Shown: piece by piece, positions 242 to 23,882 of the stretch
Layout: every line of letters starts with the position of its first letter
Numbering within the stretch: position 1 is the stretch's first letter
NCBI GenBank assembly: GCA_016212295.1
Contig: JACRGO010000048.1
Coordinates: forward strand, 1-29,997
Direction: 5' to 3'
From: Nitrospinota bacterium
Lineage (GTDB): Bacteria; Nitrospinota; Nitrospinia; JACRGO01
DNA: 29,997 bases
Made by a program: the position numbers and the translations under genes
The notes under the pieces: generated by a model
Database searches by the model: none
The model's input: the letters and a program-made list of their open reading frames with translations, nothing else
What the model was told of the DNA's origin: nothing

Positions 242-316
242 AACCCACCCCGGCGCTCCGCGCCACCCCTCCAAGGAGGGGAATTTTTATGTGCGTTCTA
301 TTTGAGACTGTTAATA
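242..316 (+). repeat. Dispersed palindromic repeat, family A, copy 1
   Basis: It begins ACCCACCCCGGCGC, passes through the palindromic core CCCCTCCAAGGAGGGG, and ends TTTGAGACTGTTAATA. The same order of blocks recurs at 11665-11754 and 23595-23684, with related halves at 22349-22408, 23104-23165 and 23223-23275. This copy lacks the ATAGTATTGATAT block present at the left of the other two long copies. Confidence 0.8.
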
Positions 317-7800: not shown

Positions 7801-7930
7801 TTTACATCCCCCTGGCCCCCTTTTTTAAGGGGGAATATTTTCGATGCCCTCGGTTATATAATCAGCTTTGCCGCGGCATAGAGTTCCAGCGATAATTCCC
7901 CCTTGGAAAAGGGGGCCAGGGGGATGTAAA
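7801..7930. repeat. 130-bp composite inverted repeat (MITE-like)
   Basis: Two 36-bp arms, 7801-7836 and 7895-7930, are inverted copies apart from a couple of central mismatches. Each starts or ends with TTTACATCCCCCTGGCCCCC and is itself a small C-run/G-run palindrome. The 58-base middle has no coding frame. It lies in the purA-hrcA gap and shares its design with 1901-1934. Upstream, 7691-7756 carries CTTAGTG/CTTTGTG-type inverted simple repeats. The whole gap is non-coding. Confidence 0.85.
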
Positions 7931-11649: not shown

Positions 11650-11754
11650 ATTAACCGTCTCAAGATAGTATTGATATAACCCACCCCGGCGCTTCGCGCC
11701 ACCCCTCCAAGGAGGGGAATTTTCATGTGTGTTCTATTTTGAGACGGTTAATAT
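11650..11754 (+). repeat. Dispersed palindromic repeat, family A, copy 2, with terminal inverted repeats
   Basis: The perfect 14-bp arms ATTAACCGTCTCAA (11650-11663) and TTGAGACGGTTAAT (11739-11752) enclose the CCCCTCCAAGGAGGGG core. From 11665 onward it matches 23595-23684 base for base except for about two positions over 90 bases. The enclosing arms make this the most complete copy and suggest the natural ends of a MITE-like element of about 103 bp. The rest of the 11596-11878 gap has nothing else recognisable. Confidence 0.85.
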
Positions 11755-18672: not shown

Positions 18673-18875
18673 ACACACCCCGGCCTTCGGCCACCCCTCT
18701 CAAGAGGGGAATTAAACATGCGGCCACCTCAAGAGGAAATTTAGATATACTACGCGGTCCCTGGCAGGAGGGGAGTTTAATATAATAAGCGGCGCCACTC
18801 CCCTCTTGAGAATGACCCAAAGCGGCGGGGTGTGTTTCCCCTCTTGAGAGGGGTGGCCTTTAGGCCGGGGTGTGT
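18673..18875. repeat. Family B palindromic element with inverted 39/40-bp arms
   Basis: The left arm (18673-18711, ACACACCCCGGCC...) and right arm (18836-18875) are inverted copies, differing only in a TTCG versus TTTA-type loop. Each arm holds GGCC-loop-GGCC and CCCCTCTTGAGAGGGG palindromes. The right arm is identical over 40 bases to 22228-22267 and 22987-23026, in the same orientation. Confidence 0.9.
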
Positions 18876-19045: not shown

Positions 19046-22000
19046 ATGCGAATAAACAAAACCAAGGCCGGAGAGCCCGTAGGGACAAGAGGGGCGGTCT
19101 CTCTGCTCCTCCTGGCCTGCATTTTTTTGTTTTCCTGCGCCTCGCCGCCCAGACCCCGTACCCCAGAAGTTGAAGAAGGAAAAGGTTGGACAAGCACACC
19201 CGTTCCAGTTGTTAAAAAAGAAGAAATGCGCCCCTCCCTAGCCAAAATCCAAGCCCCCATCCTGGAGATCGACGCCGGCGGGCACAAGGCAGTGATAAAT
19301 GATGTCATCTTCACCAGGGACGGGAAATACCTGGTCTCAGCCTCGGATGACAAGACGGTCCTGGTCTGGGACGTGGAAACCGGGGAGGTAGTCCGCGCCA
19401 TCCGGGGCCAGATAGGGGAAGGGGATGAAGGTAAGATTTTCGCCGCGGCCCTATCCCCTGACAACCGGGTATTGGCCGTGGGGGGATATGTTAAAAATAA
19501 TGCCATACGCCTCATCGACTTCCAGACCGGCCAAGTGGTCCGCCTCCTGAAGGGACACGGGAATGTGATTAACGGCCTCGCCTTTTCCTCTGACGGCCAA
19601 AGGCTGATTTCCGGGAGCGCCGACTTTACCGCGCGCGTCTGGGACGTCCGCTCAGGGGAGACCCTTCATATATTGAAAGGACACACGGAGCGTATTTACG
19701 CCGTGGCCTTTTCCCCGGACGGAAAAAGGGTTGCCACAGGCAGCCTTGACCATACCCTGAAGCTCTGGGACGCCTCCACCGGCGCCCTCCTTGCCACAAT
19801 GAAAGGGCATAAGAATAATGTAGTTTCCGCCGCCTTCACGCCTGACGGCAAAACCCTCCTCTCCGGGAGTTGGGACAAGACCATCCGGCTCTGGAACGGG
19901 GAGAACGGGGAGTTTATCAAGGTCCTGGCGGAGCAGGATTCCACAGTGGACAGCCTCTCCATCTCCCCGGACGGGACAAAGGTGGTTACGGGAATAGGTA
20001 CAGGTCCCGGCGTGACCAACAACGTCTTTTCCATCCCCTCCGGTGAACGTTTGGCTTCCTTCACAAAACACAAGAACATCGTCCTTGCCACCGCCATCTC
20101 GCCTGATGGCAGGACTGCGGCAACGGGGGGAGGGAGTGACAAGGAAATCTACCTCTGGGACGTCAACACAGGGGAGGTGAAAAAAAGGATGGCGGGCAAG
20201 GGCGGAATAATCTGGAGCGTTGGTTTCGCCAAGGATGGAAAGTCCATCGCCTGGGGAAAGAAATATGATAGAAGCGGTTATAATATGTACCAAATTAATG
20301 GTCCCCTTGAACAATCCTTCCGCTTAAAGGACCCGGACCAGGGCTTTAACCTTGCCATTGGAGAAAAGATTCAGGACATCGCCGTTGCTTCCCAAATCTT
20401 AAATCTCAAATCTCAAATCCGAAATCCCCAGGGTTCTGATTACCTCCGCTCCCTGGAATCAGCCGGCCCCTTCTCCATCCGCACCGCAAACGGAGGCATC
20501 CACCCTACCCTCCAAATCCTGAAAAATGGAAAGGCGGCCCATGAGATAACCCTGGATTCCATCAGCGGCAATGACCACCGAAGCCTCACCCTCACCCCTG
20601 ACAGCGGTACTGTCATAAGCGGCGCGGGCAATGGCTGCCTCGCCTCCTGGAGCACGGAAACAGGCAAAAAGATCCATGACTTCGTGGGCCACACAGGGGA
20701 CGTTTTTGGCGTGGCCGTCTCTCCGGATGGGCGTTATCTGGTCTCCGGCTCCGTTGACCAGACCGTGAAGCTGTGGGAGGTTGCCTCTGGAAAACTCCTA
20801 CTCAGCATCTTTCAAGGGTCGGACGAAGAGTGGGTGGCCTGGGTCCCGGACGGCTTTTATGCTGCCTCCAATAATGGGGGAAAGTACGTGGGATATCACA
20901 TCAACCGGGGAGAGGACAAGGCCGCGGATTACGTGGGCCTGGACCAGATCGGCGAGACTTTTTACCGCCCTGATCTGGTGGCCAAGAGTCTGCAAGGGGG
21001 ATTCGAGGCGGAGATCCGGGCGGAGTTGGAAAGGCTCGGCGGCATAGATGAAATCATCGCCTCCGGCCTTCCGCCCAAGGTGGCGATCCTTTCGGAAAAA
21101 GAACTTAAAATCAACCAACAGGACTTTACCCTGGAATTTTCGCTGGAGGAACAAAAGGGGGGCATAGGAAAGATCCAGTACAAGGTGAATAATGTGGCCA
21201 GGGAATCCGCCGACGCCCGTTCCGGGGACGTTTCCACAGCGCGCAAGTCCGGGGTGATATCCAGAAAATTCACCTTGCCCCACGGCAGGAACGAAATCAC
21301 CGTGACGGCCCATAACAAAGACGGCAGCATCGCGTCCAAGCCGGAAACCGTTGTCGTGAATGTGAATGATCCCCTCGAAGCCGCCCCCTCCCTTTATGTG
21401 CTGGCCGTGGGGATATCCGATTATAGCGACATGGACCTGAAACTAAATCTGGCCCATGCGGACGCCCAGGCCATGGCCAAGGAGTTGGAGCTGAGGGGAA
21501 AGGGGCTTTTCAGGGATATTCACGTGAAACCCCTGGTGGACAAGGAGGCCACCACCGTAGGCATTCAAAAGGAGTTCGAGCGCCTGCGCGGAATCGTCAA
21601 GCCCAGCGACGTGTTCGTGTTGTACCTGGCCGGGCATGGCAAGGCCATGAACGGCAATTACTATTTCATCCCCTGGGAGGCGGAGTATGTGAACATGGAG
21701 TCCTTGATGAAGGCGAGCATTTCCCATGAGAAAATTCAGTCCCTGCTCGCGATGGTCCCGGCCCTTAAGGGTCTTGTTATTATCGACACCTGTTTTTCCG
21801 GACTCGCCGCGGTCCCTGATTCCAAAATGATAGTCGCGGCCCTTTCTCGCGGCGGCGCAGAAGAAAAGGCCGCCATCGACAGGTTGATGCGCTCCACTGG
21901 CAGGACCACCCTGGCCGCCTCATCGGAAGAACAACATGCCCTGGAAGGAATGGGGGAAAAGCATGGGGTATTTACCTATTCCCTGCTGGAAGGCTTAAAA

Positions 22001-22210
22001 GGAAAAGCGGACAGAAAAGGAGAGGGGGAAGGGGTCATCACCATTGATGAGCTGGCCGATTTCGTGGGAAAAGAGGTCCCTGAAATTACCATGAACCGTT
22101 GGGGATACAGACAGGTCCCTATGAGGAATATTTCCGGCGACCCATTTCCCATCGCCTGCGGGGAGGGGTTTGATGGGCCGGGGTGCAAGAAGCAGGGCGG
22201 TGGAAAGTGA
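19046..22210 (+). CDS. WD40-repeat lipoprotein with C-terminal caspase-like (peptidase C14) domain
   Basis: A 1054-residue protein. GGAGG lies 5 bases before the ATG. A lipoprotein signal ends LFSC (Cys31), placing it in the envelope. About ten WD40 blades span residues 75-605, ending in motifs such as VLVWDVETG, ARVWDVRSG, LKLWDASTG and VKLWEVASG. A linker and Ig-like beta region (about 605-770) follow. The caspase-fold domain (about 775-1000) has the catalytic dyad His864 in YLAGHGKAMNG and Cys916 in IIDTCFSG. The family is the bacterial metacaspase/orthocaspase-like group, often with WD40 sensors. An envelope sensor-protease role is inferred. A heptamer DNA repeat inserted in frame (20394-20428) encodes SQILNLKSQIRNPQ between blades. 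The gene is bracketed by identical 40-bp repeats (18836-18875, 22228-22267). Confidence 0.92.
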   Translation: MRINKTKAGEPVGTRGAVSLLLLACIFLFSCASPPRPRTPEVEEGKGWTSTPVPVVKKEEMRPSLAKIQAPILEIDAGGHKAVINDVIFTRDGKYLVSASDDKTVLVWDVETGEVVRAIRGQIGEGDEGKIFAAALSPDNRVLAVGGYVKNNAIRLIDFQTGQVVRLLKGHGNVINGLAFSSDGQRLISGSADFTARVWDVRSGETLHILKGHTERIYAVAFSPDGKRVATGSLDHTLKLWDASTGALLATMKGHKNNVVSAAFTPDGKTLLSGSWDKTIRLWNGENGEFIKVLAEQDSTVDSLSISPDGTKVVTGIGTGPGVTNNVFSIPSGERLASFTKHKNIVLATAISPDGRTAATGGGSDKEIYLWDVNTGEVKKRMAGKGGIIWSVGFAKDGKSIAWGKKYDRSGYNMYQINGPLEQSFRLKDPDQGFNLAIGEKIQDIAVASQILNLKSQIRNPQGSDYLRSLESAGPFSIRTANGGIHPTLQILKNGKAAHEITLDSISGNDHRSLTLTPDSGTVISGAGNGCLASWSTETGKKIHDFVGHTGDVFGVAVSPDGRYLVSGSVDQTVKLWEVASGKLLLSIFQGSDEEWVAWVPDGFYAASNNGGKYVGYHINRGEDKAADYVGLDQIGETFYRPDLVAKSLQGGFEAEIRAELERLGGIDEIIASGLPPKVAILSEKELKINQQDFTLEFSLEEQKGGIGKIQYKVNNVARESADARSGDVSTARKSGVISRKFTLPHGRNEITVTAHNKDGSIASKPETVVVNVNDPLEAAPSLYVLAVGISDYSDMDLKLNLAHADAQAMAKELELRGKGLFRDIHVKPLVDKEATTVGIQKEFERLRGIVKPSDVFVLYLAGHGKAMNGNYYFIPWEAEYVNMESLMKASISHEKIQSLLAMVPALKGLVIIDTCFSGLAAVPDSKMIVAALSRGGAEEKAAIDRLMRSTGRTTLAASSEEQHALEGMGEKHGVFTYSLLEGLKGKADRKGEGEGVITIDELADFVGKEVPEITMNRWGYRQVPMRNISGDPFPIACGEGFDGPGCKKQGGGK
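20394..20428 (+). repeat. Heptamer tandem repeat inside the WD40-caspase gene
   Basis: Five consecutive 7-bp units (AAATCTT, AAATCTC twice, AAATCCG, AAATCCC) lie inside the coding sequence at about residues 450-461. Their composition is unlike the GC-rich surroundings and resembles an intergenic array near 2016-2045. The reading frame stays open. Confidence 0.85.
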
Positions 22211-22221
22211 GAGGCCCATAT

Positions 22222-22408
22222 AATAAATTCCCCTCTTGAGAGGGGTGGCCTTTAGGCCGGGGTGTGTTGTCTTTTTACTACAACATCACGGCAACGGCTT
22301 TGCTTCTTCTTCCCGGAAGAGCAAATAGGGGAGTCGGGGACGTGGAATAACCCACCCCGGCGCTTCGCGTCAAGACGCTACGCGCCACCCCTCCAGGGAG
22401 GGGAATTT
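22222..22408 (+). repeat. Composite repeat D1, upstream copy flanking the DUF559 gene
   Basis: A 187-bp block: family B arm (22228-22267), a unique middle with TTTTTACTACAACATCACGG and a CTTCCCGGAAG palindrome, then a family A-like half (22349-22408) ending CCCCTCCAGGGAGGGG. It is repeated directly at 22981-23165 with one substitution and two small indels. It begins 11 bases after the WD40-caspase stop codon, where its GAGGGG hairpin could affect the end of that transcript. Confidence 0.92.
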
Positions 22409-22503
22409 AACAAAATAAGCGCTTACCTCAAGAGGGGATTCAGGCATAGGAAATTTATGTTCAGGCCGCCCTTGCGCGAAAGGGGGCATAATAGGCACTT
22501 CCC

Positions 22504-22884
22504 ATGAAAAGGAAAATTATCCCTTACAATCCAAGGCTGAAAGAACTTGCGCGGGATTTAAGAAAAAGCGGCAACTTGTCAGAAATATTACTCTGGAAAT
22601 GTCTGAAGGGCAAGCAGATAATGGGGTACGATTTTCACCGCCAAAGTCCCATTGACGAATATATCGTTGACTTTTTTTGTCCTGAACTCTCCCTTGCCGT
22701 GGAAATCGACGGCTGGACCCATTTGGGCAAGTATGAGAAGGATGTAAAGCGGCAAAAGAAGCTGGAGTCCATGGGGGTGCGATTTTTAAGATTTGGAGAT
22801 AAGGATATCAAGCAAAATATGGAGGGGGTTCTTTTAAGGATTAAGGAATGGATAAAGGAGAACAGTCCGCCAATTCCTCTCTGA
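22504..22884 (+). CDS. DUF559 (Vsr-like) endonuclease-domain protein
   Basis: A 126-residue stand-alone DUF559 protein, a small PD-(D/E)XK-fold family related to the Vsr repair nuclease. It has the family N-terminus (YNPRLKELARDLRKSGNLSE), a core with FHRQSPIDEYIVDFFC and LAVEIDGWTH carrying the acidic residues, and VRFLRFGDKDIKQNMEGV. No methyltransferase or mismatch-repair partner is near. It lies between two direct copies of a composite palindromic repeat (22222-22408 and 22981-23165), with a 28-bp tandem array immediately 3'. No convincing Shine-Dalgarno precedes the ATG. The coding sequence looks more AT-rich than the neighbouring caspase gene, by eye. Biochemical activity has rarely been shown for this family. 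A role in repeat mobility is my inference. Confidence 0.9.
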   Translation: MKRKIIPYNPRLKELARDLRKSGNLSEILLWKCLKGKQIMGYDFHRQSPIDEYIVDFFCPELSLAVEIDGWTHLGKYEKDVKRQKKLESMGVRFLRFGDKDIKQNMEGVLLRIKEWIKENSPPIPL

Positions 22885-22913
22885 AAAAGGCATATCATAA
22901 ATTCCCTATGAGG

Positions 22914-22993
22914 AAATGCCGTACAATAAATTCCCCTGGGAAAATGCCGTACAATAAATTCCCCTGGGAAAATGCCGTACAATAAATTCCCCT
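22914..22993 (+). repeat. 28-bp tandem repeat, three units
   Basis: Units at 22914-22941 and 22942-22969 are identical (AAATGCCGTACAATAAATTC then CCCTGGGA). A third, starting at 22970, agrees until it runs into the D2 repeat at 22990. A decayed fourth unit is visible at 22889-22913. The array joins the DUF559 gene to the downstream composite repeat and carries its first bases (AATAAATTCCCCT) in each unit. Confidence 0.9.
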
Positions 22994-23165
22994 CTTGAGA
23001 GGGGTGGCCTTTAGGCCGGGGTGTGTTGTCTTTTTACTACAACATCACGGCAACGGCTTTGCTTCTTCCCGGAAGAGCAAATATGGGGAGTCGGGGACGT
23101 GGAATAACCCACCCCGGCGCTTCGCGTCAAGACGCTCCGCGCCACCCCTCCAGGGAGGGGAATTT
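22981..23165 (+). repeat. Composite repeat D2, downstream copy flanking the DUF559 gene
   Basis: A 185-bp direct copy of 22222-22408: the same order of blocks and the same unique middle, one base substitution (CTCCGCG for CTACGCG), one 3-base deletion and one 1-base insertion. The high identity implies a recent duplication or ongoing homogenisation. A 70-codon minus frame across it is repeat-derived. Confidence 0.92.
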
Positions 23166-23301: not shown

Positions 23302-23481
23302 ATGGGCAAAAAGAAAAACATAAATAAATTTACCCGCATTTTAAAATACATCAGCGGCTATTGGCCCGCCCTTGGTCTTTGCTTCACGATAATGGGCGTT
23401 TTGGCGGGATGGGTCTTTTACGATGTGAAACCTTTTCAGCCTTTTGAAGAAATCGCGGCGAAGAAAAAAGAATATATTTAG
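23302..23481 (+). CDS. Small single-span membrane protein, 59 residues, unknown function
   Basis: ATG at 23302 to TAG at 23481. The peptide has a basic N-terminus (MGKKKNINKF), one hydrophobic span (about residues 20-40, including LGLCFTIMGVLAGWVFY) and a charged tail KPFQPFEEIAAKKKEYI. Its composition and positive-inside charge look like a genuine small membrane protein; I do not recognise a family. Its stop codon ends exactly at the first base of the MITE-like element at 23481-23592, so the original C-terminus may have been cut or replaced by the insertion. No strong Shine-Dalgarno is visible. Confidence 0.5.
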   Translation: MGKKKNINKFTRILKYISGYWPALGLCFTIMGVLAGWVFYDVKPFQPFEEIAAKKKEYI

Positions 23482-23592
23482 CGGGGTATCCACTTAGAGC
23501 AAGTAAGGCCAAAATATCTACAATAGATGGTATCAATAGATAACAACCGAATACAATATATAGTATTAACTTGCGTTAAGTGGATACCCCGC
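23481..23592. mobile_element. MITE-like element with perfect 16-bp terminal inverted repeats
   Basis: GCGGGGTATCCACTTA (23481-23496) and TAAGTGGATACCCCGC (23577-23592) are perfect inverses. Pairing continues inward for eight more positions with two mismatches (to GCAAGT). The 112-bp element encodes nothing and is AT-rich inside. Its outer ends and size are typical of a non-autonomous transposon derivative. No obvious target duplication is seen; a copy of repeat family A starts three bases after its right end. No matching transposase is in the window. Confidence 0.8.
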
Positions 23593-23594
23593 AA

Positions 23595-23684
23595 ATAGTA
23601 TTGATATAACCCACCCCGGCGCTCCGCGCCACCCCTCCAAGGAGGGGAATTTTTATGTGTGTTCTATTTTGAGACGGTTAATAT
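23595..23684 (+). repeat. Dispersed palindromic repeat, family A, copy 3
   Basis: Ninety bases nearly identical to 11665-11754, starting ATAGTATTGATAT and ending TTTGAGACGGTTAATAT. Unlike copy 2 it lacks the left ATTAACCGTCTCAA arm, which is replaced by the end of the MITE-like element. Beyond it, 23685-23882 contains a decayed CCCCTCTCAAGAGGGG at about 23716-23731 and no gene. Confidence 0.85.
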
Positions 23685-23882
23685 CTTTCCACGTTTTTAA
23701 CACACCCCTTTATCCCCTCTCAAGAGGGGAAACTCTCCCGGCCTTCGAGCGTCCTTCCTAAGGGCCAGACTCACGGCCCTCGCCATCCCCTATTACTGCT
23801 CTTCACCTGCTTGTTTGTCCATTGGTCCTTGTTGTTTTCTTATAACGCCATTTCAGATTTTCAGCAGGCGGGTCAGGTATTT

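Follow-up and report, generated by a model that had tools for sequence, protein, structure and literature searches.

Why should a small nuclease gene sit between two almost identical copies of a palindromic repeat? This question is raised by the stretch of Nitrospinota DNA analyzed here (29,997 nucleotides, hereafter the window), in which a gene of the DUF559 family is enclosed by such copies. The preliminary description had placed the gene between near-identical direct repeats that differ by one substitution and two tiny indels, and had noted a 28-bp array joining gene and repeat; these features are all present, the two indels being of 3 nt and 1 nt. The predicted protein matches the PF04480 profile with E = 8e-29 and 100.2 bits (curated cut-off 20.6), which places it within DUF559. 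The locus is built as follows, TM standing for the triplex motif described below:

22216-22408 (direct copy 22222-22408), no strand: TM-pair cassette, copy 1, with two inverted triplex motifs, tails inward
22425-22439, no strand: half-palindrome ACCTCAAGAGGGGAT of family D5, upstream of the DUF559 gene
22504-22884, plus strand: DUF559 (PF04480) nuclease gene, 126 aa, predicted EDxHD/Vsr-like fold, with E27, D56, E67, D69 and H73 present
22861-22890, plus strand: 3' end of the ORF, AACAGTCCGCCAATTCCTCTCTGAAAAAGG, with the look of a decayed right end
22897-22993, plus strand: 28-bp tandem array of 3.4 copies, with the flank/TM junction CCGTACAATAAATTCCCCT, bridging the gene and the second cassette copy
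22975-23165 (direct copy 22981-23165), no strand: TM-pair cassette, copy 2

The half-palindrome upstream of the gene is probably the decayed left end of an element, and the 3' end of the ORF may represent its decayed right end; an intact form of this right end, AACACACCCCTAACCCCTCTCAAGAGGGG, overlaps the end of the coding sequence in L025 and in other loci. Judged by these remnants, the native ends of the window copy look decayed, with the gene now lying between two copies of a TM-pair cassette.

To follow the gene beyond this locus, 80 homologues were fetched using the protein alone, and random positions were taken in the same loci. The homologues came from Bacteroidetes, Ignavibacteria, Planctomycetota, Chlamydiota, Verrucomicrobia, Desulfurellaceae, Lysobacterales and Dojkabacteria. 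A matching palindrome was found within 350 bp of the gene in 75 of the 80, as compared to 2.9% of the random positions, in agreement with the enrichment of DUF559 genes beside the repeats that had been set beforehand as a check. The density of palindromes fell from 11 per kb at 0-50 bp from the gene to ~0.03 per kb past 2 kb. We then counted a wider set of 144 genes, composed of the set of 80 and of further DUF559 copies, taken both from the genomes of that set and from class relatives of the window's genome, with duplicates and also a few non-duplicate loci (L200, L201) left out. Here a homopurine/homopyrimidine hairpin lay within 150 bp of 129 of the 144 genes (1.6% at random positions), and hairpins occurred on both sides of the gene in 84 of the 144, as opposed to 0 of 9159 random positions. 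The association between gene and repeat is not due to chance. The same anatomy was seen in plasmid-borne homologues of Azospirillum, Sinorhizobium, Sphingomonas, Deinococcus and Picosynechococcus, and was not clearly present in a homologue on a Photobacterium plasmid.

The association was also examined from the side of the repeat, using a TM pattern of 23 fixed bases in 296 Bacteroidota genomes. The pattern was present in 12 of these genomes, 11 of which carried a DUF559 homologue, as compared to 118 of the remaining 284 (Fisher p = 0.0006; since the loci are interrelated the p-values given here are indicative, the effect sizes not being marginal). In Flavobacterium, 12 of 38 genomes with a full DUF559 gene had the palindrome, versus 4 of 63 without one (p = 0.0012, likewise indicative). 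A DUF559 gene was found within 300 bp of the TM in 9 of 30 repeat loci fetched from other genomes, and most TM copies in a genome do not lie beside DUF559. Several Flavobacterium genomes also encode proteins of ~150 aa that match DUF559 positions 66-108 only, possibly a separate or domesticated family.

Inspection of the repeats revealed more than palindromes. Past the palindrome lies a conserved tail, typically AGGGGTGTGT, which is the mirror image of the purine arm of the hairpin when read by the purine-motif triplex code, in which G lies over G and either A or T over A. Pairs of arm and third strand obeying this code include AGAGGGG/GGGGTGT, GGAGGGG/GGGGTGG, AGGAGGGA/AGGGAGGT, AAGGGGG/GGGGGAT, GGGAGAGG/GGTGAGGG and GGGAGAAGG/GGATGAGGG. 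Full mirror matches were found in 85.8% of 260 ends, as compared to 9.0% with arms of other classes and 9.8% with shuffled arms. The gap forming the second loop was 3 nt in 149 of 233 full matches, and when it was fixed at 3 nt, the 260 ends gave 147 mirror, 6 direct and 5 shuffled matches. A direct-repeat model for the tail, with 18% full matches versus 11% with other arms, was rejected in favor of the mirror model.

Each end thus carries, on one strand, a pyrimidine (Y) arm, a purine (R) arm and an antiparallel third strand with G.GC and A/T.AT pairing, and by this layout and pairing code the ends are class II intrastrand triplex motifs (TM/BoxC/PIT). The preliminary description had recorded composite palindromic repeats with CCCCTC/GAGGGG modules scattered across the window; the palindromes are real and recurrent, and this picture is to be amended in that the repeats are triplex motifs, not just palindromes. 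The window contains 13 complete triplex motifs, as compared to 0 in 20 mononucleotide shuffles, several of them with a small hairpin within the second loop. These include the following:

245-281, minus strand: solo triplex motif
11681-11717, minus strand: solo triplex motif, inside a MITE with terminal inverted repeat TTAACCGTCTCAA.ATAG
18675-18709, minus strand: triplex motif, left member of an outward-facing pair
18838-18873, plus strand: triplex motif, right member of the same pair
22230-22265, plus strand: triplex motif with Y arm CCCCTCT, R arm AGAGGGG, loop-2 hairpin GGCCTTTAGGCC and third strand GGGGTGT
22352-22403, minus strand: triplex motif with arms CCCCTCC / GGAGGGG, a 29-nt loop 2 and third strand GGGGTGG
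22989-23024, plus strand: triplex motif (CCCCTCT / GGGGTGT)
23109-23160, minus strand: triplex motif (CCCCTCC / GGGGTGG)
23611-23647, minus strand: solo triplex motif (CCCCTCC / GGGGTGG)
23702-23730, minus strand: triplex motif TCCCCTCTTGAGAGGGGATAAAGGGGTGT

A second family of triplex motifs, with CCCCCTT arms and GGGGGAT third strand, occurs in the window at 1902-1932, 7806-7833 and 7898-7925, and no DUF559 gene of the CCCCCTT-arm class was seen near this family in the window.

Under the name BoxC, intrastrand triplex repeats have been recognized since the 1990s; hundreds of bacterial genomes contain them in abundance, and they have been linked to genome instability. To our knowledge, no enzyme that spreads them has been described. 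The E. coli motif was reported to form a stable triplex in vitro and to lack terminator activity (PMC4666352). A transcription terminator was considered as the main role of the ends described here and was rejected, as the conserved third strand and the copies inside ORFs do not fit. The constraint points to folded DNA, because the mirror sequence lacks duplex symmetry and because purine-motif triplexes do not form in RNA (PMC4666352). The surroundings of TMs were found to be more rearranged in genomes in the same study (Holder et al. 2015), which reported no transposase or integrase remnants or mobility genes nearby and did not mention an endonuclease (PMC4666352).

Do gene and ends form a unit? 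At 91 loci with both ends, the distance between the outer hairpin edges was 396-644 bp, mostly 410-560 bp, and DUF559 was the only gene inside. The unit has terminal inverted repeats, in the form of the inverted TM ends flanking 84 of the 144 genes, with the right end often overlapping the 3' end of the gene. Stand-alone copies with the order end-gene-inverted end had tails facing the gene (tails-in) in 60 cases and tails-out in 9, as compared to 4 tails-in and 11 tails-out among copies inside ORFs (Fisher p = 8e-6, again indicative). This occurrence of ends in both orientations relative to the gene counts against a mobile element, since a simple element-end model fails to explain it; it would be expected if the unit of activity were the pair of inverted motifs.

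Sites without the element were found in other species. The hemC-hemD gap measures 452 bp where it holds a 432-bp element, versus 2-143 bp in Flavobacterium genomes without other inserted genes, and the paaD-paaZ gap is 83 bp in Deinococcus sp. QL22, the order in D. psychrotolerans being paaD-DUF559-paaZ, with terminal inverted repeats of ~57 bp (L245). No target-site duplication was recognized by eye at the 91 elements, the empty sites coming from other species only. Among the Sinorhizobium and Azospirillum plasmids examined for empty sites in close strains none was usable, and in these between-species comparisons no transposition was caught at the strain level. In L003, L004 and L067, a duplicate of the flanking host sequence, with the 3' ends of neighboring genes, stands on either side of the DUF559 gene, like the cassette in the window. 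Such direct flank duplications also count against the model, as recombination or tandem duplication would account for them no less well than transposition.

About 20 DUF559 copies reside within longer ORFs. Domain scans placed DUF559 between host domains in MetH, LeuRS (at two different sites), IleRS, RecG, HsdR and CinA; in HisF it is N-terminal. The LeuRS insert separates two neighboring residues of the Thermus enzyme, 236 and 237, and in RecG 3 residues (516-518 of the Thermotoga chain) were left unaligned. DUF559 is in frame, and no splicing domain (intron or intein) was found in the nine interrupted ORFs scanned. The host proteins include essential enzymes, and the inserts must therefore be tolerated. 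Some in-ORF copies, for example that in MetH, now have no triplex ends and may be domesticated.

We next turn to the protein. E27, D56, E67, D69 and H73 are invariant in 57 sequences, and the structure model (pLDDT 89) matched NGO0050 (3HRL; Z 15.8), I-Bth0305I, a homing endonuclease (3R3P; Z 11.9), and Vsr (1CW0, Z 9.0; 1VSR, Z 8.9). In this model, the nuclease is folded like Vsr and like I-Bth0305I, which is of the EDxHD type. The arm 7-mer was common to an element and its nearest protein relative in another genome at a frequency of 0.644, as compared to a permuted mean of 0.376 (relatives below 75% identity; 1000 permutations, the highest 52%), and copies within the same genome shared it at only 0.269. 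The sequence of the ends therefore follows the nuclease clade and not the host, as would be expected if the enzyme reads the ends.

The genome from which the window comes (3.74 Mb in 237 contigs) contains 160 CCCCTC-N4-GAGGGG palindromes. There are 7 in one genome of the same genus, where no DUF559 gene stands alone and the only match, a weak one, is part of a 1,541-aa frame, and 0-3 in relatives of the same class; the repeats are thus not equally abundant where DUF559 is lacking, a point that had also been set as a check beforehand. The only other DUF559 sequence in the window's genome is a partial match in a 586-aa frame. About half of the modules sampled in this genome (L102-L131 and L132-L151) lie within MITE-like repeats of two families. 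The first has the terminal repeat TTAACCGTCTCAAAATAG and a solo module (13 of 28 sampled with the left repeat, 7 with both; including 11681-11717 of the window), and the second has the terminal repeat AGAAGCTGTCTTGAAAA and an inverted pair within ~330 bp (14 of 22 sampled; including 18675-18873). We accordingly rejected in part the idea that the 160 palindromes are direct products of DUF559, as 13 of 28 solo and 14 of 22 paired modules have MITE-like terminal repeats. Another transposase, carrying the modules as cargo, probably accounts for part of the high copy number here. These MITE-borne modules, like the majority of TM copies that lie away from DUF559, weigh against the mobile-element reading.

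A DUF559 gene is also present in E. coli as ycjD, at sapF-fabI, with a perfect triplex motif, CCCTCTGGGGAGAGGGTTAGGGTGA, 174 bp downstream. The ycjD region was covered in 3333 of 5426 complete E. coli genomes (L246/L256), and the query matched a median of 4 places per genome, with a 41-bp match at query positions 1011-1051 that coincides with the triplex motif. As a comparison of filled and empty sites ycjD was uninformative, since the strains checked that lack it carry an efflux operon after sapF.

Taken together, a DUF559 gene between inverted triplex-capable repeats across many phyla suggests a minimal selfish element. We estimate at roughly two in three the probability that the gene and its two inverted repeats form a minimal mobile element of ~0.4-0.56 kb, whose nuclease acts on its own triplex-forming ends. 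Each end would comprise a Y arm, a short loop, an R arm, a second loop (usually 3 nt, in the window a small hairpin) and the mirror third strand. Exposed as a single strand, as might happen on the lagging strand or in the course of repair, an end of this kind could form first a hairpin and then, with its third strand, a triplex. DUF559 would most likely recognize its cognate fold and cut at or beside the end, a step for which the association, the co-variation of ends and clade, and the mirror code all speak. The element might then be copied or joined elsewhere through host recombination or repair, with short solo or paired motifs arising as non-autonomous derivatives, and inserts that are in frame and located in linkers would survive selection. 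A broader proposal, that DUF559 proteins are the dedicated enzymes of widespread elements with folded three-stranded ends and clade-specific hairpins, and that dispersed BoxC/PIT/TM repeats, those of E. coli among them, derive from such elements as non-autonomous forms, is offered tentatively, and we hold it to be somewhat less probable than its opposite.

The preliminary description had seen a candidate repeat-mobilizing system in which the nuclease may nick or process the hairpins, or be a passenger spread with them. Its view of a repeat-linked nuclease is supported overall. The association on which it was founded holds, and two amendments apply: the gene appears to lie inside one mobile element, and many copies in this genome are carried by MITEs. 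Nicking or processing of the ends would fit the data, and the passenger alternative is weakened. In that alternative, other machinery such as a host transposase acting in trans or replication slippage spreads the triplex repeats, and DUF559 is trapped cargo. It is favored by the many copies here that belong to two MITE-like families, each with its own terminal inverted repeats, and by the absence of DUF559 near most solo TMs, but it does not sit well with the same single gene recurring between the repeats in many phyla, in units that hold no other gene, or with ends that track the nuclease clade rather than the host genome. We regard it as unlikely.

The structural relationships invite two further explanations. 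DUF559 could be a free-standing homing endonuclease that cuts a conserved site in the empty allele and is copied in by double-strand-break repair, the TMs being recognition sites or by-products of repair. I-Bth0305I, the closest solved relative with known biology (E 4.5e-6), is an EDxHD homing endonuclease, the inserts sit in conserved genes and operons, and a GIY-YIG nuclease gene occupies the sufB-sufC interval in Azospirillum lipoferum 4B (NC_016623.1 254866-256695). However, the many unrelated insertion sites and genes are unlike those of a site-specific homing enzyme, homing endonuclease genes need no terminal repeats such as the inverted TMs found at both ends, and the nine interrupted ORFs scanned contain neither intein nor intron, making this explanation quite improbable. 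The resemblance to Vsr raises the possibility of a house-keeping nuclease of mismatch repair (VSP), with the nearby repeats having a separate role or being mutagenic side effects. The Caulobacter DUF559 protein VsrA was proposed to be a VSP repair nuclease that causes DNA damage, its mismatch activity being a prediction in that work (PMC12907096). A repair function fails to predict two-sided inverted triplex ends, in-frame insertion in unrelated proteins, or the agreement of ends with clade, and we consider it very improbable.

Compared with known systems, the putative mobile element shares with TM/BoxC/PIT repeats the class II layout of Y arm, R arm and third strand, the mirror code, a second loop usually of 3 nt (TTA and others) and the frequent inverted pairs (PMC4666352), and differs in the link of the motif to a nuclease gene, in its clade-specific arms and in the 0.4-0.56-kb unit. 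The parallel to RAYT/REP (REPIN) pairs drawn in the preliminary description stands insofar as a lone gene for a DNA-processing enzyme is flanked by inverted, dispersed palindromic repeats whose sequence is tied to the enzyme clade. There is, however, no HUH Y1 tyrosine transposase, the only enzyme being DUF559, a PD-(D/E)XK-like nuclease of EDxHD/Vsr fold; in addition, the ends follow a triplex code, no GTAG tag was seen in them, and in-frame insertion into ORFs is common. EDxHD homing endonucleases such as I-Bth0305I are alike in fold and in the pattern of catalytic residues, whereas the protein here is one small domain, with no intron or intein, with terminal inverted triplex repeats and at many unrelated sites. 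Vsr is similar in fold, and the context of DUF559 is repeats rather than dcm. Rickettsia palindromic elements are palindrome-bearing inserts that are likewise tolerated in frame in protein genes; they are not known to encode a nuclease domain.

Both the nuclease family and the repeat family are known, and their combination into one element is apparently undescribed; in the open-license PMC literature, we found no paper that connects DUF559 or ycjD with these repeats. A one-gene nuclease partner provides a candidate enzyme for a repeat family previously without one, and makes the question of mobility directly testable. If the element is real, its ends would be a natural case of a three-stranded DNA code under selection, with dozens of arm/third-strand combinations obeying the pairing rules. 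It would also suggest what a large family of functionally uncharacterized proteins may do, and would exemplify mobile DNA hidden in frame in essential proteins such as leucyl-tRNA synthetase.

Several other features were observed along the way. Directly upstream of the cassette, 19046-22210 encodes a 1054-aa protein with many WD40 repeats, the C-terminal stretch of which reads VIIDTCFSG and thereby hints at a caspase-like (metacaspase) domain. Close by on the right side of the cassette, 23471-23602 forms a 47-nt imperfect inverted repeat (GCGGGGTATCCACTTA...TAAGTGGATACCCCGC) around a 38-nt center, possibly another MITE. Finally, the sufB-sufC interval that holds the GIY-YIG gene in A. lipoferum 4B holds a DUF559 gene on a Sphingomonas plasmid, so that two unrelated nucleases are found at one spot.
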